This document shows positions 1 through 35,277 of a DNA stretch of 64,000 nucleotides, in pieces. The position numbers and the translations under genes are program-made. Source of the DNA: Kribbella italica (GTDB lineage Bacteria; Actinomycetota; Actinomycetes; Propionibacteriales; Kribbellaceae); NCBI RefSeq assembly GCF_014205135.1, contig NZ_JACHMY010000001.1, positions 5,580,001 to 5,644,000 of the forward strand, given 5' to 3'. Each line of letters begins with the position of its first letter. The stretch's first letter is position 1. The notes under the pieces were generated by a model. The model was not told the DNA's origin. It saw nothing but the letters and a program-made list of their open reading frames with translations, and made no database searches.

Positions 1-3000
1 CCGGAGCCGTAGTCGATCGTGCTGAGCTGCCCAGCGGTGTTGTAGCCGAGCGTCTGGGTGGTGCGGGTGACCGGGTCGGTGACCGTTGCCGGGCGGCCGT
101 TGAGGTAGGTGAAGTCGGCGGTGCCGGCAGCGTCGATCCGCTGGGTCAGCTGGCCGTCGGCGTCGTAGCCCTGGGTCGAGGTTCCGGAGGGCCCGTCGGC
201 GCGGAGCAGCATGCCGCGGTCGTTGTAGTTGTAGGTGTTCGCGCCATCGATCGAGCTGCTCGAGGTGAGGCGTCCGGCGAGGTCGTAGGCGAGGTCCCGG
301 GTAGCCGTAGACGCCTCGGCGCCGGTCCCCTCCTCCTTCAGCAGCCGTCCGACGGCGTCGTAGGTGCGAGTGCGCTGGACTCCGCCTGGCGAGAGCAGCA
401 GCGACGAGTTGCCTGCCGCGTCGTACGAGGCCGTCCAGGTGCGGTCGGCCGGCGCCGGGTGAGCGGTCGTCGACGGTTCGATCACCTTCTCGGGCAGACC
501 GAGGGAGTTGATCGTGTACGTCGTGGAGTTGCCGCGCCCGTCGGTGTAGCGGGTGCGGTTGCCCGCGGCGTCGTACCCGTAGCCGATCGTGATCGACTGG
601 GTCGCCGTCACCGGGTCGACCTGCTGGGTCATCCGCCCGAGCGCGTCGTAGGTGTACGTCGTCGCGCGGTTGCCACTGGCCGGCGTCGAACTGACGAGGT
701 TCCCGTCAGCGTCGTACCCGAGCTGCGTCGTCCCCAGCGAGTTTTTCGCCGCATCGACCAACTTGCTCGACACGAGCTGACCAGCCTTGTTGTACGACGC
801 GATGCTGCTCCGACCGAGCCCGTCGCTGTTGCGGACCTGGCGGCCCGCGTAGTCGTAGCCCAGCTTGGTGAGGACGTTGTTCGGGTCGGCCGACTGTGTC
901 AGCTGACCGAGCGTGTCGTAGGTGTTCGTCGCGACCGCACCCGACGGCGCCTGGGCCTTCACCACGTTGCTCAGGTCGTCGTACGTCAACCGCGTCACGA
1001 AATTCCCGGCGACCGGCTTCCGCTCGACCGCAGTGGTCGTGACCGGACGGTCGAGATCGTCGTAGGTGTACTTCGTGACCGCGCCGAGCGGATCCGTCGC
1101 CGACTCCACCTCGCCGCTGGCCGTATAGGTCAACTTCGTGAGCGCCCGTTCGTCGTTCGTCTTGCCAGGGACGTCGATCTGGATCTGCCGGTTGAGGTGG
1201 TCGTAGGTGAAACGGGTGGCATTACCCCGCTCGTCGACCTGCGCGAGCACATTGCCGACGGCGTCGTACTCGAGCGTTGCCTTGGGCGTCAGCGCCTGCC
1301 CGCCGGGCGGCGTGTACGGCGACCCGGTAACCTCCGTGGGACGACCGAGCTTGTCAAAGGCCGTCGTGCTGATGTTGCCCAACGCATCCTTCACCGACGT
1401 CTGCTGCCCGAAGGCCCCGTAGCCCACGGCACCGGTCGGCTGAACAGCGGCGGCCGCTCCACCATTCTGCTCGGCCTGGACCTTCGGAGCTACGGTCCGG
1501 ACCTGGCGACCCAGCTCGTCGTACTCGAACTTGGTCGTGAAGTCCGCCTTGACCGCCCCGGTCACGTTGCCGCGCGGCTGGACCTCGGTGAGCCTCAGGC
1601 CACGCTGGTCGTAGGTCGACGAGGTCGTCAGCAACGACCCGTCGGTGTTCTGGACCTTGGTCTCGACAGGCCGGCCTGCGGTGTCGAAGACGTAACTGAC
1701 GACATCGGTCACGGTCGTCGGCCCGGCCAGGTCCGCGTTGGACCAAGCACCTGTGGTCTCGCGCTTGGTGACGTTGCCCGCGAGGTCGTGGGTGTCGGTC
1801 GTCCTGCGCTTCAGCGTCTGCGGGTCGGCGGTCGTGGTCGCCACCCGGCCCGCGACGTCGTAGGTGTAGTCGATCGTGGTCTTGCCGTTGTCGGTGACCG
1901 ATCGGGTCCGGTTGCCTGCCTTGTCGTAGGTGTTGTTCGCGAGGACGAAATCGCGGGCCGTCCCGTCCGGGTTGCGGAACCCGACCAACGCGGCCGTCTT
2001 GAGAGTGTCGTCGCCGTTGTAGGTATAGTTCGTGACCCGCTTCATCGCGTCGATGTCGACCGACTTACGCCCGGCAGGGTCGTACCAGGTGGTCTGCCGG
2101 ATCGTGTAGTCGACGCCCTCGGTCGGACCGTCCTCAGGAGTGTCCTCCGGATCGTCCGGAGTCTCGCCCGGCAGGTTGAAGTCGCGGATCTCGGTCAGCA
2201 GGTTGAGGTCGCTGTAGGCGTACTCGAACCGCGCGCCGTTCGCGTCCTGCGACCAGGTCTTGTTGCCGAACTGGTCGTAGCCCTGCTGGGTCTCCCGGCC
2301 AGTCGCGTCGACGCTACGGATCACCCGTCCGCGGTCGTCGTACTCGAAGCTGGTGACCCTCGGTTCGTCACCCGTCAGCAGATCCCTGGCCGTCGACTTC
2401 ACGACGTTACCGTCGTTGTCGTACTCGATCTCGCCTTTCTGCTGGTGCTTGTCACCCGTCACCGCGTCGGTCGTGACCGCCCCGGTGACACTGACGACGC
2501 GAGACATCTTGTCGTAGGCGTACGTCGAGGTGACGCCGGCCGGGTGACTGTCCGAGACCTGGGTCTCGGTGAGCTTGCGGCCGATCTCGTCATAGGTGTA
2601 CTTCGTGACCACCCCGGACGGAGCGGTCAACTGAACCAGTTGACCGTGCTGGTTGTAGAGGTACTGCGTCTGCGCAGTCGTCGTTGCCGTGACCTTGCTC
2701 GTCGACGTGCGGAGCAGACCGGCCGGCATCGGCTGGCCATCAGGACCGGTCGCAACGCCATCGGTGTAGGTGTAGTTGACCTCGCCACCGTCGGGGCTGC
2801 GTTCGACAGTGAAGTCACCAGCAGCGTTCAGCGACGTGCTTCGCCGGAAGGTGTCGTCGGTCGCGCTGCTCGATCTGCCGTCCCGATAGATCGCCAGCTT
2901 GTCCCAGCGTGGATCAAGCGCACCCCAGGCTGCGTTGGCGTGATAGACGTTGAACTCGGTGCGACAGTCCGTCGTGCCCGTTCGACAGGTCTTGGTCGAG

Positions 3001-6000
3001 GCGACGTTGCCTCGGGAGTCGTAGGTCATGCTGACTTCGGCTCCCACCTCGTTGGTCACCTTGGTCAGCACGCCGGTCTTGTCGTAGGTGAAGCTCCTGA
3101 TTCCGTACCCCGAACGCGGCCAGTCGACCGTCACGGCAGGCGCGGGGGAACTCGGGTGGTCCTCATCACGGGTGCGTGCGGCGATCGGCCGCCCTGCGCG
3201 CAGCAATCTGCCCGCGAGCGCGTCGTACTCGTAGACGTAGCTGCGATTCAAAGGATCGGTCACCCGCACGGTCCGCCGAAGGTCGGTCTCGCCACCGCTG
3301 ACCGTCGGCTGGCCGAGCTGCCATGATCCGCCGTTGGCGTCGACGTAATCGGTGATCCGGTCGTCGGCCGGGTGGTAGGACAGTTGAGCCAGCGTCCGCC
3401 CGGCCGGCGTGGTGATCGACGTCAACTGGTCGGCGGCCGTCTTACCCAGCTCGTAGTGGCTCTGGATCTCCTTGGCCGAGATCGGGTGGGAGTACAGCGA
3501 GACCTCGTCGATCAGCCCGTCGAAATACCGAGTCGTCTCGGTGCCCCATCCCGGCCAGTCGGATGCTTTGGCGGTCGCGGCCGCGCCGATCTGGCCGATG
3601 GGGAACGGATCGTTGTTGATCGCGCCGGTGTCGAGCCTGCCGACGAATGCGCCATCCAGGTGCACCGTCTGGCTGCCGTCGGAGGCGTTCAGCGCAACGT
3701 GGTGCCACTGGTTGTCGTTCACCAGAGCCGACGAGGTGATCGGCGCGGCCGCTCCCTGCCAGAACTGGCCTCGGAGCTTGCCGTCGTTACCGACGTACAG
3801 CAGCGGCATCCCGGCCGTCGGTGTCGTCCCGATCACCTTGTTCTGGTACCCGATCAAGGGCTGCGAGCCCGCGGCGCCGGTCTTGAACCACAGCTCGACG
3901 GTGGCGTCACGGCTCCGGTTCACCATGCCGTTCTTGAGCCCGACGAACGACTTCGCTGCCGCTCCACCGAACCGGACCGACTTGTCGGCGTCTGCCACGC
4001 CCGCCAGCGGCGACTCCTGACCAGCCACGGTTCCGCTGTGGAAGCCGTCGTCGCTACGAGGTGCGATGTCGACCTCGTTCAATGCGGTCCGCCAGGGTTC
4101 AGACAGCCGGTAGTAGGCATCGGGCTTGCTGTCCAGCACCGCGCTGCGATAGTGCGAGCCCTGCTCGAATCCGTACGTCGTGCACTTCTGCTCGGAGTTG
4201 CACGCCTTGGTCAGTGCGTCGCCGGTGTACTCGTACGTCCACGTCAACGGCGTTCCACCGACCGGCTGGGTGCTGACCGACGCGACGTGCTGACCGTCCT
4301 GTGTCCAGGAGAAGGTGAGCTTGCGGCCGGCGCCGTCCTGACTCGCGACCGACTGCAGCTTGGCCGTGACGTCGGCGCTGTCGTACGTCAGGACCAGGGG
4401 CTTGCCCTGCGCACCGGAGATCTTGCTCAGCCGGCCACTGGTCGCAGCGAACTCGTACTTCGTGCCGGGCGCGATCTGCAGGGACCACGGGCCGGAAATC
4501 GCGCCGGTCAGAATCGCCTTGGACCCTCGCGGACCGGCATAGCTACCGTCGGCGTTGCGCGCGAACCGGACCTGACGTCCATCGGGGTAGGTCACCAAAG
4601 CATGGAACGGGAAACCGCTCTCGGTCTTGACCCGCATGTCATAGCGGCTCGACCAGCCCGCACCGAACAGTCCATCACGACGCGGGTCGAGACTGTTGTA
4701 CGTCCGCGCCACGTTGAGCTCAGGCCCCGCAACTGGTACGACGACATCCAGCGCCGCCGTCGTGTAGTTGCCGGCCTGAGGATCGAAAGGCTTGTCCCCT
4801 GGCTGAGCCTCACTGCCGGCCAGGTGCGACGTGATCACCGGCTGCGGAACGTCGGTGAACATCGTGATCGGCTGAATGGTCTTCACCACACCGTCGTTGT
4901 CGCGGATGTAGGGCCGCCACTGGTACTCCTTGTTCCAGGCCAACTTGCCGAACGGAATGGCCCAGGTCTTGGCCGCGCCGTAGTCACCACTGGTGAAACA
5001 GCCAACCCGAGGGTCCGCGCCAACGACCTCGCAGACCTCGAACCGGTACTGGATGCTGGATTCGGGCGCATCGGGATCAACCGCATCGGCCCACAACTGC
5101 GGTCGCAACGTAGTGGCCTGCGCGCCATTCAGCGGCCAGATCCCCGCAGGATCCACCACCGGCGGAACGTTCTTCACCACGATACGGATGCGGAGCGGAG
5201 CGATCCCCCAGTCGGTGAAGGTCCGCGGAGTACTGCCGTCCTGATGAACCATCGTGAACTCGATGTCGTACGTCGTACCGGCCGCGCTGCCCGGCAGTTT
5301 CTGCACCGACACCGGAAGCGTCATACCTCCCAAGTGCGAGACGATCGTCGGGAACTGGGTCTTGTGCGCGTTCTCGGTGTTCACCTGATTGCCCGCGGTG
5401 TCGAAAACCCGGTACGTCATGAAGTCCACGCCCGGCTGCCAGGTGTAGGCCCCAAGGTTCTTCACGTAGATCGGGAACTTGCCAGGCTTGTCCTGAGTCA
5501 CGAAGTCCGCCGGCGACTGCGGCATCTCCTGGTACGACGCCCGGTACGGCGAGTGCGTCACCACCAGTCGCGGCGGGTTCGCGGTGTCGACGCCCGCGAA
5601 CTTCTTCCATGACGCCGAGTCGTTCTGGTTCCGGGCACGCACCGCCAGGCCCCAGTTGTCACGCGTCCCGTCGGCCAGACTCTGGATCCAGTCGCGGCCC
5701 GCGGCCTGGAGCTCGATCGGCTGATAGCCCGCCTTGCACGCCGACGAGGTCTGGCCCGTCGCGATGTAGCCCTTCGCGAAACCCGCACCACCGAAGGCTG
5801 CGGGCGTCACCGGCGGACCGGGGAACTTGAGCTGCGCTTGCGGAATGTTCTGCCACGCCTGGGTGACACCGTGCACGTCGACCCACCGCGCAGCACACGA
5901 ACCGGATTCGTAGTTCAGCAGGTCGAGCCGAGCCGTGAAGACCTTGTGATAGCGCAGCGCCGGCACCAGACTCGGGAACGACAGGTATGACGCGAACACG

Positions 6001-7997: not shown

Positions 7998-8039
7998 AGC
8001 TCCCGTCCGCCCGGCCGGCTGGTCAGGCGGACGGGAGCT
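7998..8039. terminator. Bidirectional hairpin between convergent genes, overlapping a CDS end
   Basis: A perfect 14-bp stem, AGCTCCCGTCCGCC (7998-8011) with GGCGGACGGGAGCT (8026-8039), and a 14-nt loop. It begins 5 nt after the stop of the small secreted gene. Its right arm lies inside the last codons of the convergent NB-ARC gene. There is no T-run, as is usual for high-GC actinobacterial terminators. Confidence 0.65.
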
Positions 8040-10305
8040 GGCGGCGCAGCGCCAACCGGTGTCCCGCTGTTGCCAGGCGGTTGCCGACGACGGCGGCCTG
8101 CGGGCAGCCGAGGTCGCGGAAGACCGTGTAGGCCCGCCACCAGAAGTCCGTCGCCGCGGTCGTCAGGCCTTGCGCCGCGAGGATCTCCCCGGTTCCGGCG
8201 CAGGCCCGGGCGAGCTCGTAGCGGTCGTCGATCCGCTGCGCCTCGGCCAGCGCGAGCTGGTGGTGGTGCATGCCCTCGGCGTACCGGCCCGCACGGCGCA
8301 GAGTGTGTCCGTAGTCGTTGTGCACCTCGAGCACGAAGGGCAGGCTCCCCAGCTCCACGGCCAGTGCGAGCGCTTTTCGGTGGCAGTCGAGCGCCTGCTC
8401 GATCCGCCCTTCGGCCAGGTGCAGCCGGCCCAGTCCGTTCAGGCCCTCGCCCTCGCCCAAGGCGAACGACAGCTGCCGGGAGTGGTCGATAGCCAGCTGG
8501 AACCCCCGCCGCGCGGCCGGGAGTCGCCCGAGCGCGGCATCTCCCGCCGCCACGTTGACCAGCGCGTGGGCCTGCTCGAAGGACCACTCCCCCAGCTCGC
8601 GGCTGACGGAAAGGCCGCGCCGGAAGAGGTCCAGCGCCTCCGCGGTCAGTCCGAGCCGCAGCTTCGCCCAGCCGAAGCCGGCCAGCGCGGTCGCGGTCCC
8701 GGAATGGTTGCCCTCGGCCTCGAACAGGGCCAGCGACTGCTGCTCGAAGCGGATCGCCACCGCGTAGCCACCGAGATGGCGGTTGCACATCCCGATGTTG
8801 GTCAGGCTGCACGCCTCGCCACTGCGGTGGCCGATCCGGCGCGCGACCTCGAGCGCCCGCTGGTAGGCGTCCCGCGCTTCGGCGTACCGGCCGAGGCGCC
8901 AGTACATGCAGCCGAGAGCGTTGTGCCCCCGTCCCCGGAGGCGATCCGTCGCGGCGCAGTCGACGGCAGCCAGGTGCAGGGAGACCGCGTCGTCGAAGAA
9001 CCCGGCGGCGTCGAGGTAGCGCTGCAGGATCACCGACAGATCCGTCGTGTACGACGAGTGGCCGTGCTCGGGCGCCGAGAGCGCGGTGGCGATCAGGTTC
9101 TGCCACTCGGCGTCGAGCCAGGCCTGCCCGTCAGTGCTGCTCGCGAAGGGCCGGTCGGAGGGCTCGCGGCGCATGCCTTGCTGGTTCCGGTCGGTCGGCG
9201 CGTAGGCGTAGGCCGCTTCCGCGACCAGCGACCGGTAGTGCTCGAGCAAACGAGCCGTGGCTGCCCGGCGTACCTGCGCGGGGTCCTCGTCACGCACCCG
9301 GTCGGCCGCAAGCAGCCGGACGAGGTCGTGCAGCTCGTAGCGACCGGACCGTTCCCGCAGCAGGCTCGCGTCCAACAGGTCTTTCAGCTGGACCAGTGCC
9401 GTCTCCGGCGCGACCCCTGCGAGAGCGGCCGCGGCATCCAGGTCCAGGTCGCGCCCGGGATGCAGTGTGAGCAGCCGGAGCATCTGGCCGCTGGCCGGCT
9501 CCAGTGCCTGGTACGACATCGCCAACGCGGCCGCCACTCCGTCGTCCAGCCGCAGCCGAGCCCGGTGCTCCAGCAGCCGCTCCAGATGGTCCGCGGCCGA
9601 CCAGGACGGCTGCGCGCGCATCCGGGCGGCCAGTACGGCGAGCGCAAGCGGCAGGTGCCCGACCACCTCAGCCAGCTGCGCGGCGACGTCAGGTGCGTCG
9701 TCCAGCACAGCCGCCGTACCAGCTGTACTGCGCAGCAGCGCTGCCGACTCGTCGGGCTCGAACACGTCCAGCCCGACGCGCAGCGCATCAGCCCGGCCGA
9801 CTAACCGACGTCGGCTCGTCACCAGCGTCACGCAGGTCGGACTGTCGGTCAGCAACGGCTGGATCTGGTCCTCCGACGCCGCGTTGTCCAGCAGTACGAC
9901 GGCCCGCCGGTCACCGAGGAGCTCCCGGAAGAGCGCTGCCCGGGCACTCAGACCCAGCGCATGAATCCGGCTGCCGGGCACGTCCAGGTGCCGCAGGAAC
10001 CCATCCAGTACGGCGGCCGGGTCAGCAGGCGGCCGGTCCGGGTCGTAGCCGCGCAGGTTGACCGACAGCTGCACCTCGGCGTCGTGGACCAGCCGGTTGG
10101 CGAGGTGCACGGCCAGCGTGGTCTTGCCGACCCCTGGCATGCCATGGACCAGCACGACCTTGCCGCAGCCGAGCCCGGCCATCACCTCCGCCACCGTCTC
10201 GTCCCGGCCGACGAACGCATCCGCCTCACCGTCCACCGCGCCGGTCACCCGAACGACGGCAGCCTCGGCCGCGAGCCCGGAGACGAGCTGATGCGTCTGC
10301 GCCAC
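8023..10305 (-). CDS. STAND-type NB-ARC/TPR protein, frameshifted from its HTH domain
   Basis: 760 codons from a GTG at 10305. The order is an FVGRDE linker (about 31-36), a P-loop GMPGVGKTT (55-63), the rest of an NB-ARC switch ATPase, a winged-helix-like region, then TPR repeats over roughly the last 350 residues. This is the C-terminal part of an AfsR/GutR-like signalling ATPase. The adjacent full-length paralogue at 10719-13247 carries an N-terminal helix-turn-helix in the same chain. Here that domain sits in another frame (10245-10580), 61 nt overlapping. The first residues (AQTHQLVSG) align with the paralogue's RQAHQVVAG, so the GTG is probably only an internal codon of the ancestral gene. 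One inserted C in the run CGCAG near 10300 would rejoin the frames. It may be a pseudogene, a sequencing error, or a split gene. Confidence 0.8.
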   Translation of the reverse strand: MAQTHQLVSGLAAEAAVVRVTGAVDGEADAFVGRDETVAEVMAGLGCGKVVLVHGMPGVGKTTLAVHLANRLVHDAEVQLSVNLRGYDPDRPPADPAAVLDGFLRHLDVPGSRIHALGLSARAALFRELLGDRRAVVLLDNAASEDQIQPLLTDSPTCVTLVTSRRRLVGRADALRVGLDVFEPDESAALLRSTAGTAAVLDDAPDVAAQLAEVVGHLPLALAVLAARMRAQPSWSAADHLERLLEHRARLRLDDGVAAALAMSYQALEPASGQMLRLLTLHPGRDLDLDAAAALAGVAPETALVQLKDLLDASLLRERSGRYELHDLVRLLAADRVRDEDPAQVRRAATARLLEHYRSLVAEAAYAYAPTDRNQQGMRREPSDRPFASSTDGQAWLDAEWQNLIATALSAPEHGHSSYTTDLSVILQRYLDAAGFFDDAVSLHLAAVDCAATDRLRGRGHNALGCMYWRLGRYAEARDAYQRALEVARRIGHRSGEACSLTNIGMCNRHLGGYAVAIRFEQQSLALFEAEGNHSGTATALAGFGWAKLRLGLTAEALDLFRRGLSVSRELGEWSFEQAHALVNVAAGDAALGRLPAARRGFQLAIDHSRQLSFALGEGEGLNGLGRLHLAEGRIEQALDCHRKALALAVELGSLPFVLEVHNDYGHTLRRAGRYAEGMHHHQLALAEAQRIDDRYELARACAGTGEILAAQGLTTAATDFWWRAYTVFRDLGCPQAAVVGNRLATAGHRLALRRQLPSA

Positions 10306-10718: not shown

Positions 10719-13247
10719 CTACGTCCCGCTGACGGGACCGCCCGCCTCGGGCGTCCCCAGGTCGCCGAACAGGGTGAGTGCGCGAGCGTGGTGGTCACGC
10801 GCGGCCGCCGCGTCCCCGCACGACTCGAGCACGTCTCCCAGACCACGCCAGGCGCAGGCCAGCTCGTACCGGTCGCCCATGGTCTCCGCGTCCGCCATCG
10901 CCTGGGTGTGCGCCGCGGTCGCCTCGTCGAACCGGCCGGTCCTCGTCAGCGCCGTACCGTGGTCGTTGCGGACCTCCACCGCGAGCGACCGGTGGCCGAT
11001 CTCCAGGACGACGTCCAGCGCCTCCGCGTGCAGGTGCACCGCAGCGTCGGCGTCGCCTCGGGCCAACTGGATCCGGCCGAGCAGGTTCAGCCCGTCGCCC
11101 TCGTTGCTGCGGAACTCCAGCTTGCGCGACAAGGTCAGCGAGCGTTCGCCGTACTCCGAAGCCTGCTCCAGCGCGCCGAGGCGCTCCTGGGCGGCGCCGA
11201 GGTTCAGCAGCGCGTAGGCCTCCTCGCAGGTGTTCTCCCCGAGTCGCCGGGCCTTCGCCAGTCCCACCTCGAACTCGGCCAGCGCCTGCTCGACCAGTCC
11301 CAGCCGGAGCAGTCCCCAGCCCAGACCACCGCGGTGCGTGCTGGCGCTGGGGGACATCACGTCCTCGTCGTCGAGCAGCGCCAGCGCCTGCCGGTAGCAG
11401 TCGACGGAGTCCCGGTACCGGCCCAGCCGGTAGTGGCCAAGGGCAACGTTTCCCAGACACAGCCCGATCCCGGTCCGGTTGCCGGTCCGGCGGACCAGCT
11501 CCAGGGCCTGCTCGTAGCACTCGCGGCCCTCGGCGTACCGGCCCAGACGCCACAGCGCGCAGCCCAGCTTGTTGTGCGCCAGGCTGCGGGCCTGGTCGTC
11601 CTGCGCGGTGGTCACGGCCAGGCGATGGATCACCTCGGCCTCGGTGAAGTAGCCGCAGGTGTCCAGGTAGTAGTGCGCCGCGGTCGACACCGCCTTCACC
11701 GGCTCCGCCAGGCCGGCCTCGGCCGCCGTACGGGTCACGGCGACCAGGTTCGGCCGCTCGGCGTCGAGCCAGGACCGCGCCGCGTCCCGTTCCGCCATCG
11801 GCGGCAGCTCCGCGTCGGTCAGCTGCCCGAAGTCCCACCGGATCACTTCGTGCGGCGCGTAGGTCCCGCCGGCCCGGAGTACGCCGGCCGCGTAGAAGCC
11901 GGCGATCCGCGTCAGCGCGTCCCGGCGAGCGGCACCGCGGTCCTCGTCGCGGGAACGGTCGTGCAGGAACAACCGGACCAGGTCGTGCAGACCGAACCGG
12001 CCCGGTTCGCTGGTCTGGACCAGGCTGGCCCGGACCAGCTGAGCCAGCTCCAGCTCGACCTCAGCCGGGTCCAGCCCGGCCGCCGCTGCGGCGGCGTACC
12101 CGTCGAAGTCCCGGCCCGGGTGCAACGCGAGTACGCGGAGCAGCCACCGGCGCTCCGGCGGCAGCGCCTCGTACGACAGTGCGAGGGCCGGGCCGACGCT
12201 GTCCTCCAGCCGCAGCCGGTCACGGTGCTCGGTCAGCCTCTCGAGGTGGTCGGCCAGCGACCAGCCCGGCAGGTCGTCGATGCGCCCGGCGACGACGGCC
12301 AGCGCCAGCGGCAGATGGCCGACCAGCTCGGCGATCCGCAGCGCGGTGCTCTCGTCCGCGGCGACCGCCGCCGATCCCGCCGTACGCCGGAGCAACTGCA
12401 GCGACTCGGACTCGCTGAACACCCCGATCGCCAGCGCTCGTGCGTTCGTCCCCGCGTCGAGCTGGTAGCGGCTCGTCACCAGCGTCGGCGTGCCGGGCGC
12501 CAGCAACGGGTGCACCTGGTCCTCGCTGGCGGCGTTGTCGAGCAGCACCAGAACGTTGCGCTCGGCCACTAGTTGGCGAAACCGGCGGACACGGCCCGAC
12601 AGGTCCAGGCCGAGCACCTGACTGCCCGGCACCCCGAGACGGCGCAGGAACCCTTCCAGCACCGCCCCCGGATCGGCAGGCGGTCGCTCCGGGTCGAACC
12701 CGCGCAGGTCGACCGCGAGCTGTAGCTCGGCGCCGTGACCAGCGGCCACCAGCCGGTGCCCGAGGTGGCGCGCCAGCTGGGTCTTGCCGACGCCGGCCAT
12801 TCCGCCGATCACGACTGTGGTCGCACCGGTCCGGTAGGCGGCCAGCACCTCGGCGATCTCGGCCTCCCGCCCGACGAACCCCTCCGGATCCGCGGGAAGG
12901 CTGTCGCCGACAGTCACGATGCCTGCGTCGGCGGCCCGGCCGGCCACCACCTGATGGGCCTGCCGCCAGCCGGCGACGTGCGACTCGTCGTCCAGCAGCG
13001 CCGAGGCGATGTCGACCACCAGCTCGACGTCCAGCCGCGTCCGGCCGGGCTGCAGGCAGCGATAGACGGTGTTGTACGCCGGAAGCTCGCTGACGCCACG
13101 GCGCCGCCGCGACGTCGTCACCCGGCGATGGATCTCGTGGTACGAGACCCCGGCCCAGCTGCGCAGCGCGCGCAGCCGGAGTACCAGCTCGTCCGCGGTC
13201 CGTACGCCGGCTGGCTCCGGCGGTGCCGTCGTTCCCGTTCGCCCCAT
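10719..13247 (-). CDS. HTH-NB-ARC-TPR (STAND) transcriptional regulator
   Basis: 842 residues from the ATG at 13247, which has a G-rich ribosome site 5 nt upstream; the longer GTG start at 13367 would run back through the intergenic promoter region. Residues 15-95 are a Xre-like helix-turn-helix, 122-128 an FVGRE entry motif, 148-156 the P-loop GGMAGVGKT, and the second half consists of TPR repeats (for example LGRYAEGRECYEQALEL). In known STAND regulators nucleotide exchange in the NB-ARC domain links signal sensing by the repeats to DNA binding. It is divergent from the small secreted protein at 13391, with 143 bp between starts, so that gene is a plausible target. It has a tandem, broken paralogue immediately downstream. 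The ligand is unknown. Confidence 0.85.
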   Translation of the reverse strand: MGRTGTTAPPEPAGVRTADELVLRLRALRSWAGVSYHEIHRRVTTSRRRRGVSELPAYNTVYRCLQPGRTRLDVELVVDIASALLDDESHVAGWRQAHQVVAGRAADAGIVTVGDSLPADPEGFVGREAEIAEVLAAYRTGATTVVIGGMAGVGKTQLARHLGHRLVAAGHGAELQLAVDLRGFDPERPPADPGAVLEGFLRRLGVPGSQVLGLDLSGRVRRFRQLVAERNVLVLLDNAASEDQVHPLLAPGTPTLVTSRYQLDAGTNARALAIGVFSESESLQLLRRTAGSAAVAADESTALRIAELVGHLPLALAVVAGRIDDLPGWSLADHLERLTEHRDRLRLEDSVGPALALSYEALPPERRWLLRVLALHPGRDFDGYAAAAAAGLDPAEVELELAQLVRASLVQTSEPGRFGLHDLVRLFLHDRSRDEDRGAARRDALTRIAGFYAAGVLRAGGTYAPHEVIRWDFGQLTDAELPPMAERDAARSWLDAERPNLVAVTRTAAEAGLAEPVKAVSTAAHYYLDTCGYFTEAEVIHRLAVTTAQDDQARSLAHNKLGCALWRLGRYAEGRECYEQALELVRRTGNRTGIGLCLGNVALGHYRLGRYRDSVDCYRQALALLDDEDVMSPSASTHRGGLGWGLLRLGLVEQALAEFEVGLAKARRLGENTCEEAYALLNLGAAQERLGALEQASEYGERSLTLSRKLEFRSNEGDGLNLLGRIQLARGDADAAVHLHAEALDVVLEIGHRSLAVEVRNDHGTALTRTGRFDEATAAHTQAMADAETMGDRYELACAWRGLGDVLESCGDAAAARDHHARALTLFGDLGTPEAGGPVSGT

Positions 13248-13390
13248 CGAGCCCCCGTCCCCGGCGCCACCACGGTCCGGGTCGGAGAACCGGGAACGCC
13301 GCGTGGTCGAGTTTGGTCGAGAACGGCGACACGAGCAATGCGCAACGACCAGGGTCAGGACTTCCAACCGCCTACGAAGGAGTCCCCACC

Positions 13391-13738
13391 ATGCGCGTCA
13401 GGTCCCTGGCCGTCATCACCGGCCTCGCTCTGTCCGGCCTCGCCGTCGCAGTCCCCTCGGCCACTGCCGCTCCCGCCCCGGAGCGCGGAGCCCTCACCGG
13501 CACCGCCGCCCAGGCCAAGACCGACTGCGTGAGCGTCTTCGGCACCAACTACCACCTGACCAGCTGCTACCGCAGCGCCCCGGGCAACCAATACCGGGCC
13601 ACGATCAACTGCACGAACAGCGGCCTGCGCCTCGGTCCGTGGCGCAACCAGACCGCCGACCTGCGCAACAGCTCCCGGATCAGCTGCCCGGCCGGCGGCG
13701 TCGCGCAGGCCTGGGGCTGGAAGTGGCGCACCGTCTGA
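13391..13738 (+). CDS. Small secreted four-cysteine protein (copy A)
   Basis: 115 residues; the ATG at 13391 has an excellent AAGGAG site 7-9 nt upstream. It has a signal peptide of about 27 residues ending ATAAPA. The mature chain has four cysteines with spacing C-x12-C-x14-C-x24-C and the shared motifs GNQYRA, LGPWR and SCPAG. The next gene (13776) is a paralogue with the same pattern. I do not recognise a named family. Two disulphides and a compact extracellular domain are likely. Its promoter region is shared with the divergent HTH-NB-ARC regulator, which suggests co-regulation. Confidence 0.8.
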   Translation: MRVRSLAVITGLALSGLAVAVPSATAAPAPERGALTGTAAQAKTDCVSVFGTNYHLTSCYRSAPGNQYRATINCTNSGLRLGPWRNQTADLRNSSRISCPAGGVAQAWGWKWRTV

Positions 13739-13775
13739 TCTCGCACCCGACCACGCCTGCTCTGAAAGGACTCCG

Positions 13776-14135
13776 ATGAACACCACACTCCGTGCGGCCC
13801 TCGTCGTCACCGGTCTCGCCGCCAGTGCGCTGACCGTGACCGCTCCCGGCGCGTCCGCTTCCACCACCACCGCCCCGGCTGTGTCCACTTCAGCTACCGC
13901 AGCGTCCCCCTGCGTCCCCCGGAACTGGGGTCCGACCTTCTTCACGGTCAGCTGCTATACCCGGGCGACCGGCAACCAGTACCGGGCCGTCGTCAGGTGC
14001 AGCAACAACGCCTTGTACTTCGGACCGTGGCGCTACCACACCCTCGAGCTGACCAACCGGTCTCGCGCGAACTGCCCGGCCGGCACCACCAGGCTCCCGG
14101 TAGGGCACGGCTACCAGACCCGCATCTATACCTGA
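13776..14135 (+). CDS. Small secreted four-cysteine protein (copy B, tandem paralogue)
   Basis: 119 residues starting at the ATG at 13776 with GAAAGGA upstream. It has a signal peptide of about 29 residues (Ala/Thr/Ser-rich) followed by a short Thr/Ser/Ala linker. The mature domain has cysteines spaced C-x13-C-x14-C-x24-C and motifs GNQYRA, FGPWR and NCPAG, aligning with copy A 37 nt upstream. The pair is probably one transcript ending at the strong hairpin at 14151-14200. The two copies are well diverged outside the motifs, so the duplication is not recent. Function unknown. Confidence 0.8.
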   Translation: MNTTLRAALVVTGLAASALTVTAPGASASTTTAPAVSTSATAASPCVPRNWGPTFFTVSCYTRATGNQYRAVVRCSNNALYFGPWRYHTLELTNRSRANCPAGTTRLPVGHGYQTRIYT

Positions 14136-30338: not shown

Positions 30339-30417
30339 CAACACGCTGTGTGATGCAGTGGCCCGCGGGGCGCCCTAAGGTGAGCATTCGCCACGACCTG
30401 GGAGGCGCCTCGCCGGC

Positions 30418-30966
30418 ATGGACGGACTGCTGCTCCACCGACTGCTGCCGGGACTCCCCGACGAAGTGAGGGTCGGCGCAGGGCAGCAGCGATCGCTGGT
30501 GCTCGGGACGAGGGCCGAGGCGCGGCTGTGCGCCGACCTGATCGCCGGTCTGGACGAGCCGCCACCGAACGCCGTGGTCGACGCCAGTGGACCGGTCCGG
30601 CTCGTACCTGCCGAGGGCGGACTGCTCCCGCACCTCACTGTGCTCGGCAACATCCTGCACGGCCACGTCGCCACCCACCGGGTGACCAGAGACGCAGCGG
30701 ACAAGCAGTGCAGGCTCACGGCGACCAACTGCGACCTGGACGACGTACTGCTTCGCTACCCGCACGAGATCACCCCAGGACGCCGCCGGCTGGCCGGACT
30801 GGCTCGTGCGGTGCGAGCTGACCCGGCGGTGATCGTGCTGGAGGACGCACCCGGCCTGCCGACCTGGGGGTCGTTGCTGCGACCGGACAACATCACCGAG
30901 CTGTGGTCCATCGCGCTGGTGCTGATCACCACCGACGCCGAGCGAGCGAAAGCCTTCGACTCGTGA
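30418..30966 (+). CDS. Degenerate ABC ATPase-like protein lacking all nucleotide motifs
   Basis: 182 residues; the ATG at 30418 follows GGGAGG. The chain aligns along the RecA-like plus helical fold of importer ATPases, but each key motif is altered. The Walker A position (30-37) reads GTRAEARL with no Lys or Ser/Thr. The Q-loop position (63-66) has no Gln but leads into the typical LLPHLTVLGNIL. The signature position (118-123) is ITPGRR instead of LSGGQ. Walker B (138-143) is VIVLED with Glu and Asp swapped. The H-loop position (170-173) is ITTD with no His. It also stops short of a regulatory domain. It cannot plausibly hydrolyse ATP, yet the reading frame is intact and coupled to the next gene (GTGA overlap), so it appears maintained as a pseudo-ATPase subunit. 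Confidence 0.75.
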   Translation: MDGLLLHRLLPGLPDEVRVGAGQQRSLVLGTRAEARLCADLIAGLDEPPPNAVVDASGPVRLVPAEGGLLPHLTVLGNILHGHVATHRVTRDAADKQCRLTATNCDLDDVLLRYPHEITPGRRRLAGLARAVRADPAVIVLEDAPGLPTWGSLLRPDNITELWSIALVLITTDAERAKAFDS

Positions 30967-32207
30967 TCCGCCGACGCGTTGTGCTCGCCGGCGCAGCAGC
31001 CGCAGCCCTGTCCGGCTGCAGTCCCGACGTACTAGGACTGAGCCGCAGCGTCCGGGTGGCAGTCAGCTGGAGTGGTCCGGAGCTGAGAGCCTTCCACCGC
31101 GTACTGGACGGGCTCGGCAAGCTCGACTATCCGGTCGAGGTGATCCCGCTCGGCGACGACATCTCCACCGCGTTCGGCGAGCGCTCGGCCCGGCGCCCCG
31201 ACCTCGTCATGCTGCCGCAGCCCGGTCTGGTCCCACCGCGCCGCGGTGACCTGGAGGCGATGCCTTCCGACCTGGCCGACCGCGGCCGGGCCCGGCTGTG
31301 GGACGAGCTGCTGACCCACGACGGTACGACGTACGGGCTGCCCTTCAAGACTGCGCACAAGTCGGCGGTCTGGTACCGGCCGTCGGTGTTCCGCGAGGCC
31401 CAGGTGCAGCCGCCGACGCAGTGGGACGAGTGGCTGGAGCTGAACAAGGCCCTGTCGCTGCGAGGCATCAGACCGCTCGCACTGGGCGCTGGAGACGGCT
31501 GGGTGCTCACCGACTTCCTGGAGAACGTCCTGCTCGGTACGGCGCCCAGTGCGTACCGGGCGCTGGCGGTGTCGGACGACCCGAGGCCCTCACGCGTACC
31601 GGAGTTCGCGGCCGCACTGCGGCGGCTGGCGACAATGTGGGCCATGCCCGGCGCGCTGGCCGGTGGCGTGGAACGCTCGCTCACGCAGCAGTTCCCGGAC
31701 GCGGTGGTGGAGGTCTTCGGGCACCGCCGCGCGGCGATGGTGACTGCGTCGGACTTCGCCGAGCCGGTGATCCGTTCGTTCGCCGCCGACCCGGACGACG
31801 TCGGTCTGTTCACCTTCCCGGCCTTCGGTCCGGGTGCCGCCGCACCGGTGGTGGTCGGTGGGGACGTGATGGTCCTCCAGCGACCGGCAACCGACGACGC
31901 GTGGGACCTGCTGCACCGGCTGGCGACACCGGCGGCTCCTGCGCCTTGGATCGCGTCCGGCGGGTTCCTGGTCGACGGGCGCACTACTGGCTACTCCCCC
32001 GAGCTGACCCGGCTTGCTGACCAGTTGGCTGCGCCCGGTACGTCGCTGCAGTTCGACCTGTCGGACCGGCTCGGCGAGCTGGGTGGCATCGACGGCCTGT
32101 GGCGTGTGCTGACCGATCTGCTCGTCCGGGTCGGTACACGCGGGCCTGACGTCGTACCGGAAGCCGTGGAGTCGGCACTGGACGAGCTGGGCACGGTGGA
32201 GGGCTGA
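30963..32207 (+). CDS. Extracellular solute-binding lipoprotein of an ABC-importer-like operon
   Basis: 414 residues from a GTG at 30963 that overlaps the upstream TGA. The signal IRRRVVLAGAAAAALSGC ends in a lipobox with Cys19 and has adjacent arginines of Tat type. The mature part has the carbohydrate-binding family 1 organisation: an N-terminal alpha/beta lobe, hinge segments YGLPFKTAHKSAVWYR and PPTQWDEWLELNKAL, and a C-lobe with ATMWAMPGALAGG. The binding pocket cannot be assigned a sugar. It should be tethered outside the membrane and deliver ligand to the fused permease encoded next. Confidence 0.88.
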   Translation: MIRRRVVLAGAAAAALSGCSPDVLGLSRSVRVAVSWSGPELRAFHRVLDGLGKLDYPVEVIPLGDDISTAFGERSARRPDLVMLPQPGLVPPRRGDLEAMPSDLADRGRARLWDELLTHDGTTYGLPFKTAHKSAVWYRPSVFREAQVQPPTQWDEWLELNKALSLRGIRPLALGAGDGWVLTDFLENVLLGTAPSAYRALAVSDDPRPSRVPEFAAALRRLATMWAMPGALAGGVERSLTQQFPDAVVEVFGHRRAAMVTASDFAEPVIRSFAADPDDVGLFTFPAFGPGAAAPVVVGGDVMVLQRPATDDAWDLLHRLATPAAPAPWIASGGFLVDGRTTGYSPELTRLADQLAAPGTSLQFDLSDRLGELGGIDGLWRVLTDLLVRVGTRGPDVVPEAVESALDELGTVEG

Positions 32208-33982
32208 TGGGCCTGCGCAGCAACGGCTTGTCGCTCGAGATCGCCGGGCGCCCGGTCTCCGGTCGTCCGGTGACCGGCCGGCCGCAGCGACCGGCAGGGC
32301 CTTATCTGCTGGGGATTCCGGCGCTGCTGCTGACCAGTCTGCTGCTGGTGCCCATCGTGATCACGGTGGTTGCGGCGTTCCGGCTGCCGGACGGGTCGTT
32401 CGGGTTCAGCAACTTCGCCGTGATGGGTGATCCGGCCGCACTGCACGCCGTACGGAACAGCGTGGCCTGGGTGGCCGTAGCCATCGCACTGGTCGTTGTC
32501 GGGTTCCTGCTGGCCGTGGTGAGCTACCGGCTGCCGGGACTGTCGTCGTTTCTCCAACCAGCGTTGGTGATTCCGTTCGCCGTCTCGGTGCTGGTGTCCG
32601 GTGCGACGTTCCGGCTGATCTTCGACTCGGCCCCTGAGCGCGGCACGGTCACGGCGGTGTGGAGCTCGCTGTTCGGCACCAGTCCGGTGTGGCTGGGGCC
32701 GGGTCTGTTCTGGCTGGTGCTGGTGTCCGCGTTCGGCTGGACGTGGCTCGGGTACGTCGTGTCGCTGTTCCGCGCCGGCCTCGACGCGATCCCGGACGAC
32801 GTCAGCAGGACGATCGCAGCCGAGGGGCTGACCGGACTGCGCCGCTGGCGCGCGCTGGAGCTGCCGCTGCTGCGGCCGATCACCGGAGTCATCACGCTGA
32901 CGCTGGTGGTCGCGGCGGTCCGGGTGTTCGACCTGGTGCTGATCGTCGTGCCCGGTCCGATGCAGCACGACGCCGACGTGCTCGGCCTGAACTGGTGGCG
33001 TGCAACGACGACAGGCGACGACTCCGGCCGTACGGCGGCGCTGGGCGTCGTCCTGTTCGCCATCGTTGCCGCAGTGGCCGTGATCGGCGTGCGCGGCCTG
33101 CGTCGGCGGCGCTGGGCGATGCCGGTGAGCGTCGTACCGGCTGACTCGACGTTGCGCAGACCCAAGCCCAGCAAGCGGGTTCGGCGGATCGGGTGGACGG
33201 CCGGGTTCGCTGTCAGCCTGTTCTGGATCCTGCCGGCCGTCGTACTGGTGGCTACCGCGCTGCACTCACCGCGGGAGGCCGGCCTGCGTGGCTGGTGGTC
33301 ACTGGACGGGCTTGGACTGTCGTCGTTCGATGCTGCGGCGAGCATTGGGCTGCTGCGGTCGCTGCTGTCGACTGTGCTGATCTCCTCCGTCGCCACGGTG
33401 GTGCTGCTGGTAGTTGCCGTGCCGACGGCGTACCTGGTCGCGTGGGGTGGCCTGCCGACCTCGCTGGGCCGTGTGGTCACGTCGGTCTTCGTGGTGCTGG
33501 CCGTGACGCCCGTGCAGATGTACGCCGCGCCGCTGCGGGATGCGATCGACGCGGCGGGGCTCACGGGGTCGCGGATCGCGCTGGGGTTGGTGCACGCGGC
33601 GGCTGGGCTGCCGTTCGCCGTACTGCTGCTGCGGTCCGCGTTCGCGTCGGCTCCACCGATGCTGGTTGCTGAAGCACTGCAGGGGCCGGCGCGGCAGAGC
33701 GCCGTACTGGCGACTGTGCAGCGCACCTACCGGCCGGCCGTGATTGCCGTTGCTGTGCTGGAGTTCGTGCTGGTGTGGAACGACTTCATCGTCGGCTTCC
33801 TGATCAGCGGAGCCGGTACGACGCCGCTGTCGCTGGTGCTGTGGGGTGAGGCGCGCCAGTTCTCGGCGTCGAGCGGGACGGTCGCGGCAGCGGCCGTGGT
33901 CGCGTCCGTCGTACCGGCGGTGCTGATGCTGACGTTCTGGCGGACCGTCGTGCGTGGGCTGACCATCGGGAGCAGGCCGTGA
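32207..33982 (+). CDS. Fused MalF/MalG-type ABC permease (two TM domains in one chain)
   Basis: 591 residues; its ATG overlaps the upstream stop (TGATG). It has two permease domains, each with about six transmembrane helices and one EAA loop. The first loop is near residues 204-224 (IAAEGLTGLRRWRALELPLL). The second is near 487-510 (LVAEALQGPARQSAVLATVQ), followed by VWNDFIVGF, a hallmark of the second sugar permease. Normally these are two genes; here they are joined at about residue 305-330 (PADSTLRRPKPSKRVRRIGW). The EAA loops are the docking sites for an ATPase; the only ATPase-like protein in the operon is the degenerate one at 30418. Confidence 0.9.
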   Translation: MGLRSNGLSLEIAGRPVSGRPVTGRPQRPAGPYLLGIPALLLTSLLLVPIVITVVAAFRLPDGSFGFSNFAVMGDPAALHAVRNSVAWVAVAIALVVVGFLLAVVSYRLPGLSSFLQPALVIPFAVSVLVSGATFRLIFDSAPERGTVTAVWSSLFGTSPVWLGPGLFWLVLVSAFGWTWLGYVVSLFRAGLDAIPDDVSRTIAAEGLTGLRRWRALELPLLRPITGVITLTLVVAAVRVFDLVLIVVPGPMQHDADVLGLNWWRATTTGDDSGRTAALGVVLFAIVAAVAVIGVRGLRRRRWAMPVSVVPADSTLRRPKPSKRVRRIGWTAGFAVSLFWILPAVVLVATALHSPREAGLRGWWSLDGLGLSSFDAAASIGLLRSLLSTVLISSVATVVLLVVAVPTAYLVAWGGLPTSLGRVVTSVFVVLAVTPVQMYAAPLRDAIDAAGLTGSRIALGLVHAAAGLPFAVLLLRSAFASAPPMLVAEALQGPARQSAVLATVQRTYRPAVIAVAVLEFVLVWNDFIVGFLISGAGTTPLSLVLWGEARQFSASSGTVAAAAVVASVVPAVLMLTFWRTVVRGLTIGSRP

Positions 33983-35277
33983 GTACTCCCGACGAGGAGA
34001 AGCCGAAGAGCGATCGGCGGCGCGGGGACTTCCTGGGGATCAGCGCGATCGCCGCGGGTCTGCTGTCCGGGCTGGCGAGCGAGAAGCTGTCGCAGAGTCT
34101 GGAGAGCGGCGGCTGGATCAAGGTGGCCGGGTGGAGCCTGACCATCGGCTTCTTCCTGATCTGGGCGATCTACAACGCCCCGGTGGTGCTGCGGAAGTAC
34201 CGGACCTGGCGGGCGGGCGCTGTCGCGACCAGTACGCCGGCCGACCTCCAGGCGGCAGCCGAGGAGGCCGAGCAGTGGCTGGTCGCGCTCGGCTCGGAGG
34301 CGGCCGGGCTGGCCGCGGCGGAGTGGTTCGACCTGAACGAGCCACGGCTGCGGGACGTGCTGGCGAGCGAGAAGCCGACCAGCGCGTCGGCTGACGACCT
34401 CGCCCGGATCTGCGACGCACTGGATGCCTGGTACGTCCGGCAGGGCCGAGCCGAAGACCTGCTGGAGGTCAGCGTCTACCTGCTGGGTCTGGCGGAGGGC
34501 TGCGGCCGGCAGGACCTCGAGGAACTGGCGACAGCGCGCGAGGCCACGGCGTACCGGCTGTTGGAGGAGCTGGACACCGCGATCGCCAAGATCGGCATCT
34601 CGGCGAACGTCGCGCCTTCACGGCGTGGGCACAGCCGGACAGCGGCGGCACTGGAGACCAGGCGACAGGTGGAGCTGGCGCTGGTGCACCTGGCTCGGGC
34701 AGACAGCGCTCCTGTGGGTAGCGAGCAGGAGGAGGCAGTCGCGCACGCCCGGAGCCGGCTGGACGACGCACGGCTCAGCCGGCCCGGTCCGGACCTGGCA
34801 GCTGACGTGGCGATCTCGATCAACCTGGCGATCGTCCAGCTGTACCAGGAGGACGCGGAGGGCGCGCTGGACCACCTGAAGCCTGCAGCGGCTCGGGCTG
34901 CGGCTGCTGGTGACCGGAGTGCGCAGGCGCATGCGTTCGAGCTGATCGGCGCGGCCGCTTGGATGCTGAAACGGCCGGACGAGGCGGTGAAGTGGTGGGG
35001 GCGGGCCGAGCACCACTACTCGGAGATCGACGAGCAGGAAGGGCAGGCCCGGTGCCTGCAGCACCTGGGCTCGGCTGCTGTCGTCGCGGGTGACCGCACG
35101 GGTGGTCTGAAGCTGCTGAAGCAGAGCGCCGTACTGCGGACGTACGAGAGTCCGGTGCTGGTGCAGTACCTGGCGGTCGCGACGCAGACCGGGCCGGCGT
35201 CGGTCGAGCCGGAGGTGTCGCGGCGCGGTTCGATCGGCTGGTTGCGGCGCAAGATCGAGCAGTGGAGGTTGCGCTGA
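33979..35277 (+). CDS. Membrane-anchored helical-repeat (TPR-like) protein
   Basis: 432 residues from a GTG at 33979 that overlaps the permease stop (GTGA). It has a basic, Lys/Asp-rich N-terminus, two hydrophobic stretches (LGISAIAAGLLSGLA near 20-34 and VAGWSLTIGFFLIWAIY near 49-65), then a cytosolic region of helical repeats from about 80 to 410, including TPR-like units in which Ala, Leu and Gly recur (DAEGALDHLKPAAARAAAAG, RPDEAVKWWGRAEHHYSEI). It ends in basic WLRRKIEQWRLR. No enzymatic motif. Fourth gene of the importer-like operon, so it may be an assembly or signalling partner at the cytoplasmic face of the permease. Confidence 0.75.
   Translation: MSTPDEEKPKSDRRRGDFLGISAIAAGLLSGLASEKLSQSLESGGWIKVAGWSLTIGFFLIWAIYNAPVVLRKYRTWRAGAVATSTPADLQAAAEEAEQWLVALGSEAAGLAAAEWFDLNEPRLRDVLASEKPTSASADDLARICDALDAWYVRQGRAEDLLEVSVYLLGLAEGCGRQDLEELATAREATAYRLLEELDTAIAKIGISANVAPSRRGHSRTAAALETRRQVELALVHLARADSAPVGSEQEEAVAHARSRLDDARLSRPGPDLAADVAISINLAIVQLYQEDAEGALDHLKPAAARAAAAGDRSAQAHAFELIGAAAWMLKRPDEAVKWWGRAEHHYSEIDEQEGQARCLQHLGSAAVVAGDRTGGLKLLKQSAVLRTYESPVLVQYLAVATQTGPASVEPEVSRRGSIGWLRRKIEQWRLR

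Follow-up and report, generated by a model that had tools for sequence, protein, structure and literature searches.

A four-gene actinobacterial unit derived from type I ABC importers, with an ABC-fold subunit that has lost its nucleotide motifs

ABC importers are defined by ATP-driven pumping. In the asymmetric ABC transporters, where one ATP site is degenerate, evolution has altered ABC-domain motifs and one site or subunit stays active. The MsiK- and MsmX-dependent importers combine genes for a solute-binding protein (SBP) and a permease, without a working ATPase gene, with an orphan ATPase encoded elsewhere in the genome; their EAA loops are where this shared ATPase docks, and none is known to us to have a pseudo-ATPase or a STAND partner. 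In the trehalose importer LpqY-SugABC of mycobacteria, SugC is a working ATPase and the permease halves SugA and SugB are separate proteins. Finally, the maltose importer MalFGK2-MalE of E. coli consists of an SBP for sugar, the two halves of a permease and, beneath the membrane, a subunit of ABC fold, and it has a partner of STAND/TPR type, MalT; in the absence of transport its MalK2 dimer holds this STAND regulator by direct contact (PMC6468293).

We analysed a stretch of 64,000 nucleotides from the Kribbella italica genome (contig NZ_JACHMY010000001.1, positions 5,580,001 to 5,644,000; hereafter the window). It contains a unit that shares features with each of these systems. Its four genes overlap by 4, 1 and 4 nt and are arranged as follows:

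30418-30966 (+): pNBD, a pseudo-ATPase with an ABC ATPase-domain fold, 182 aa (profile, fold, alignment, dN/dS)
30963-32207 (+): solute-binding lipoprotein of sugar type, SBP_bac_1 family, lipobox LSGC, 414 aa (PF01547, E 5e-11)
32207-33982 (+): fused two-half permease, SugA-like then SugB-like, 591 aa (PDB profile matches to SugB at 5e-22 and SugA at 3e-19)
33979-35277 (+): membrane-anchored TPR protein, 432 aa (Pfam TPR_12 below cut-off; AF2 model)

The unit includes the sugar SBP lipoprotein and the two permease halves of a type I (CUT1) importer. The lipoprotein's nearest solved relatives are oligosaccharide binders, and a lipobox-like site is present in the binding protein at 47 of the 48 loci described below. 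SugB and SugA are the closest solved relatives of the permease, whose N half is UgpA-like and C half GlcU-like by ncbifam. No working ATPase was found in or beside the unit; as in MsiK-dependent systems, an orphan MsiK-like ATPase sits elsewhere in the genome. ATPase genes near three other loci and within the window were considered as cognate partners and rejected, being of other types and outside the unit. A defence system was likewise set aside, with no useful PADLOC match. Unlike the asymmetric transporters, the unit has lost all motifs in the only ABC-domain subunit that it encodes.

The pseudo-ATPase and its conservation

The pNBD gene is an intact frame running from ATG to TGA, and its stop overlaps the lipoprotein start by 4 nt (GTGA, 30963-30966), as the original prediction had stated for both. 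The encoded protein is shorter than normal ATPase domains, and its 182 residues track an ABC importer ATPase domain end to end. Pfam PF00005 gives a sub-threshold score (16.1 of 25 bits) and PHROGs just a generic ABC match; a PDB search with a profile of the pNBD family retrieved ABC ATPases at 4e-12, SugC among them. The AF2 model (pLDDT 79, pTM 0.74), which like our other structural models is built on a shallow alignment of ~20 sequences, matched ABC ATPase domains in the PDB, including MalK, OpuA and SugC, with Z ~10 over ~150 of 182 residues. The importer-ATPase fold proposed earlier was thereby recovered. pNBD is an ABC ATPase domain in fold but falls outside the definition in its motifs.

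Indeed, alignment to ordinary sugar-importer ATPases confirmed each of the changes originally listed. Walker A (GPSGSGKST) has become LGTRAEAR(LC), without Lys or Ser/Thr; the Q-loop has gone from VFQ to VPA and so lost its Gln; the signature LSGGQRQ reads ITPGRRR; Walker B is VLED in place of LLDE, an inverted acid pair; and the H-loop VTHD is ITTD, with Thr for His. pNBD is thus an ABC ATPase-fold protein in which Walker A, the Q-loop, the signature, Walker B and the H-loop are all unusable. The altered sites are:

30496-30531 (+): Walker A position, LVLGTRAEARLC, no Gly-rich loop and no Lys/Ser/Thr (GxxxxGK[ST] in 0 of 48 orthologues)
30601-30636 (+): former Q-loop, now LVPAEGGLLPHL, the most conserved stretch of pNBD (Gln at the Q-loop position in 0 of 48)
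30766-30795 (+): former signature, EITPGRRRLA (alignment of 48 orthologues)
30829-30867 (+): former Walker B and D-loop, VIVLEDAPGLPTW, acid pair inverted (E-D 48/48, D-E 0/48)
30916-30939 (+): former H-loop, LVLITTDA, no His (His at that position in 0 of 48)

The unit was found in 48 aligned loci from four families and two orders, a census that samples order- and class-level searches and locus reading, with start codons outside Kribbella chosen by rule. It is complete in 47; at the remaining locus (L155) a contig end cuts it before the fourth gene. Gene order is constant in all 48, with mostly overlapping genes. Outside Kribbella the carriers belong to the Actinopolymorphaceae (family f4), for example Actinopolymorpha alba (L083), and to two families of another order (f20 and f51); the flanking genes in A. 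alba and in one f20 locus differ from those in Kribbella. Since all 48 pNBDs, across four families, lack the Walker A Lys, the Q-loop Gln and the H-loop His and have E-D rather than D-E, the motif losses are old and no accident of Kribbella. The details vary between lineages. For example, the sequence that replaces Walker A differs between families, the Actinopolymorphaceae have a less eroded signature (LTVGQRQ), and f20 pNBDs keep a Walker A-to-Q-loop segment that Kribbella lost. A VPAxGG-type sequence occupies the former Q-loop in nearly all 48, and the PTW of the former Walker B/D-loop region is kept in both Kribbella and Actinopolymorphaceae. Within Kribbella three stretches are nearly invariant: VRLVPAEGGL (ex Q-loop), GRRRLAG (ex signature) and LEDAxGLPTW (ex Walker B/D-loop).

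No pNBD orthologue with working motifs, as an ancestral state, was found in this census. The class-level matches that were fetched and read carried, bar one module member, ordinary ATPase motifs such as GPSGSGKS, and one further locus (L160), lacking any of the other module genes nearby, was set aside for that reason. The f51 module L142 (genome G952) is the one most like Kribbella's, with a permease 56% identical and a short fourth gene without an NTPase domain; it is filed in another order, which may reflect either horizontal transfer or a misplaced assembly.

An intact pNBD orthologue, 58-89% identical to the window protein, is encoded by 32 of the 38 Kribbella genomes (the window's own counted). 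The permease and TPR genes occur in exactly these 32 and are absent from the same six. The genes of the unit are present or absent together in this genus, and pNBD is lost only with its partners. In the six genomes without the unit, the methyltransferase gene that flanks it in the window is immediately followed by radA, and the four genes have left no detectable remnant at that site. These six fall in five places among the carriers in a radA and methyltransferase tree, some nodes of which are weakly supported, so about five separate losses of the whole unit from the same site are the simplest reading. All four genes are under purifying selection in Kribbella, with median pairwise dN/dS of 0.28 for pNBD, 0.18 for the binding protein, 0.11 for the permease (the most conserved member) and 0.31 for the TPR gene; these are Nei-Gojobori counts in GC-rich DNA and therefore rough.

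The orthologue search and dN/dS comparison had been proposed as checks on the idea that pNBD is selected for a non-catalytic role and is not decaying. This idea is well supported: 48 open orthologues have degenerated in the same way, selection within Kribbella is purifying, and loss is joint with the partners. Neither of the two findings named in advance as contrary to it, a normal Walker A or a broken gene in relatives, occurred in any of the 48.

Coupling loops of the permease and the fourth protein

The cytoplasmic EAA loops of SugA/SugB-type permeases dock the ATPase, and in MalFGK2 the loop is the direct contact point (PMC3150292). Three stretches of the fused permease bear on this contact:

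32789-32878 (+): first EAA-type coupling loop, eroded (conservation 0.55; 167 of 240 windows of its half more conserved)
33650-33736 (+): second EAA-type coupling loop, consensus lost (conservation 0.46; 233 of 239 windows more conserved)
33956-33970 (+): C-terminal tail GLTxG, kept (G-L-T-x-G invariant in two alignments and in all families aligned)

In a control family of ordinary actinobacterial permeases, similarly divergent (48% mean identity, against 45% for the module permeases), the EAA loop is surpassed in conservation by only 21 of 252 windows. The control loop thus ranks in the top tenth, whereas the loops of the module are below average and lack the conservation seen in type I (CUT1) importers; they are likewise eroded by comparison with LpqY-SugABC. 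The second loop is also shortened in many f20 members. Within Kribbella alone it is well conserved and may have a lineage-specific role there. The membrane segments of the permease are strongly conserved. Because the consensus and most of the conservation are gone from the EAA loops, chiefly from the second, ordinary docking of MsiK on this permease looks unlikely, and the suggestion that pNBD docks on these loops, whether by itself or together with an active MsiK-like ATPase, is unsupported as it was framed. The kept GLTxG tail would fit a pNBD in the MalK position, since the MalG tail lies near the Q-loops (PMC3150292).

The original prediction did not recognise the fourth gene as part of the unit, nor the second, lysine-less P-loop domain that this gene encodes in other families. 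C-terminal TPR repeats are indicated by the sub-cut-off TPR_12 match and by a TPR-like predicted structure, the AF2 model combining an N-terminal helical (membrane) hairpin with TPR-like helices. No effector or DNA-binding domain was recognised in the protein. Its relatives in Actinopolymorphaceae and f20 have a STAND-type NTPase domain; in Kribbella and f51 this domain is absent, and membrane helices and TPR repeats remain. In every readable module STAND P-loop the Lys is replaced by Thr, Ser or another residue (GxGTS, GSGSS or GAG versus GxGKT), while non-module STAND paralogues in three of the genomes searched read GxGKT. The fourth protein thus lacks the Walker A Lys that marks a STAND NTPase. 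Unlike MalT, it has a P-loop that is dead or absent and no recognised DNA-binding domain, is membrane-anchored and is encoded within the unit.

Two other STAND/TPR-type proteins in the window, at 8023-10305 (-) and 10719-13367 (-), have ordinary P-loops (GMPGVGKT and GMAGVGKT), unlike those of the module. At one locus (L105, genome G040, ~13400-14100) the STAND gene seems to have either a frameshift or another start at its N-terminus when compared with its relatives.

Given that both the EAA loops and the STAND P-loop depart from what defines these components, we class the unit as a variant derived from type I importers; it would form a new class if a receptor function were proven.

A possible receptor and competing explanations

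We propose, with a probability of about one half, that the ancestor of the unit was an ABC importer of type I (CUT1, sugar), which gave up ATP and became a receptor. That it is a pseudo-ATPase unit is well supported, and the receptor function is what we infer from its parts. At the level of sequence, pNBD keeps its fold without a nucleotide motif, the EAA loops are relaxed, and the STAND P-loop has lost its Lys or, in Kribbella, its whole domain. In the proposed mechanism the lipoprotein would capture an extracellular ligand, probably an oligosaccharide, and then dock on the permease, which would shift conformation without pumping. Occupying MalK's place, pNBD would relay the state of the permease to the membrane-anchored STAND/TPR protein, and the TPR platform would bind or release a cytoplasmic partner. 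The whole would be a ligand receptor made from importer parts, resembling the contact between MalFGK2 and MalT except that no ATP would be hydrolysed.

We favour a receptor because the motif losses are shared by 48 of 48 pNBDs, gene order is constant, presence is all-or-none, losses are joint and selection is purifying, and because the EAA loops are relaxed, the STAND P-loops are lysine-less, a cognate working ATPase is missing and MalK-MalT offers a precedent. Several observations count against it. In the TPR protein neither an effector nor a DNA-binding domain is recognised, and pNBD, besides lacking every ATP motif of the ATP-hydrolysing MalK, lacks the C-terminal domain through which MalK contacts MalT. 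The conserved second EAA loop of Kribbella may mean that the contact between permease and pNBD is lineage-specific rather than lost; the genome's MsiK-like ATPase could drive the permease; and the strongly conserved membrane segments are explicable by transport too. The broader proposal is slightly more tentative: a new class of membrane receptor, in which a whole ABC importer acts as an ATP-independent ligand sensor signalling via a pseudo-STAND/TPR protein, may extend across several actinobacterial families. In the open-access literature, the scope of our search, no description of an all-dead ABC importer subunit or of such a unit was found.

If true, an importer scaffold can serve as a receptor, with its ATPase subunit, docking loops and partner NTPase all stripped of their energy parts. 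It would also be a clean natural case in which pumping and the sensing of a ligand can be told apart, an issue that MalK-MalT and other transporter-coupled sensors leave unsettled, and a warning for genome annotation that such operons are not to be counted as nutrient uptake systems.

The main competitor, which we consider unlikely, is an importer still driven by ATP, in which the fused permease works with the orphan MsiK-like ATPase docked on it and pNBD serves as a subunit for assembly or regulation, possibly within an MsiK-pNBD heterodimer. Many sugar importers without an ATPase are indeed driven by MsiK (PMC4890002) or by other multitask ATPases (PMC7658222). Kribbella has a stand-alone MsiK-like gene, the permease is the best conserved part of the unit, and the SBP looks like an oligosaccharide binder. 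However, the coupling loops are relaxed, the second being nearly the least conserved part of its half where the control loop is in the top tenth; an MsiK-pNBD heterodimer would have no complete ATP site, pNBD giving neither Walker A nor signature; and an importer that simply relied on MsiK would have no need of pNBD or a STAND protein. We hold this explanation less likely than a receptor because the coupling loops are eroded and pNBD and the STAND/TPR protein are left unexplained. The stand-alone MsiK-like ATPase itself (L177, 4203-5282 (-); G000:C1, ~7641.2-7642.3 kb) lies beside a LacI-type regulator and has an OB_MalK domain, which was found in just one other ATPase of the 8.9-Mb genome.

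A passive or ion-driven uptake channel, with pNBD merely bracing the permease, seems improbable: the same motif losses and the conserved permease core and binding protein would suit it, but it leaves the constant STAND/TPR partner unexplained, and no relative of type I importers that works without ATP is known to us. A shade less probable still is that pNBD acts as a sensor with an unconventional mode of nucleotide or metal binding, such as one via the E-D pair. This pair is invariant (48/48) and the Walker B/D-loop region is among the most conserved; against this, no member has a phosphate-binding loop, and the sequence in its place varies between families. A decaying pseudogene or gene-call artefact, which the absence of all motifs and the short protein might suggest, is ruled out by purifying selection and 48 intact orthologues, and also sits badly with three separately conserved stretches and constant partners.

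Upstream region and the rest of the window

Two elements precede the pNBD gene:

30376-30381 (+): promoter-like -10 element TAAGGT, TAGGGT in many relatives (kept upstream in 21 Kribbella loci)
30400-30405 (+): Shine-Dalgarno-like GGGAGG, 12 nt before the ATG (kept in most Kribbella loci)

The first was not scored by a strict sigma-70 scan, and a strict-consensus scan for promoters and terminators found nothing. To call the ribosome site good, as was done at first, is slightly generous; GGGAGG is conserved in most relatives, but its 12-nt spacing is long and one Kribbella sub-lineage lacks it. In that sub-lineage (L027-L031 and L053, region 30376-30418) only ~6-11 nt separate TAGGGT from the start codon downstream and no Shine-Dalgarno remains, suggesting that translation there has become leaderless.

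Elsewhere in the window, at 459-5612 (+), lie very long ORFs (955 and 746 aa) whose composition is unusual, being rich in arginine and valine; they are probably antisense to a long repetitive minus-strand gene.
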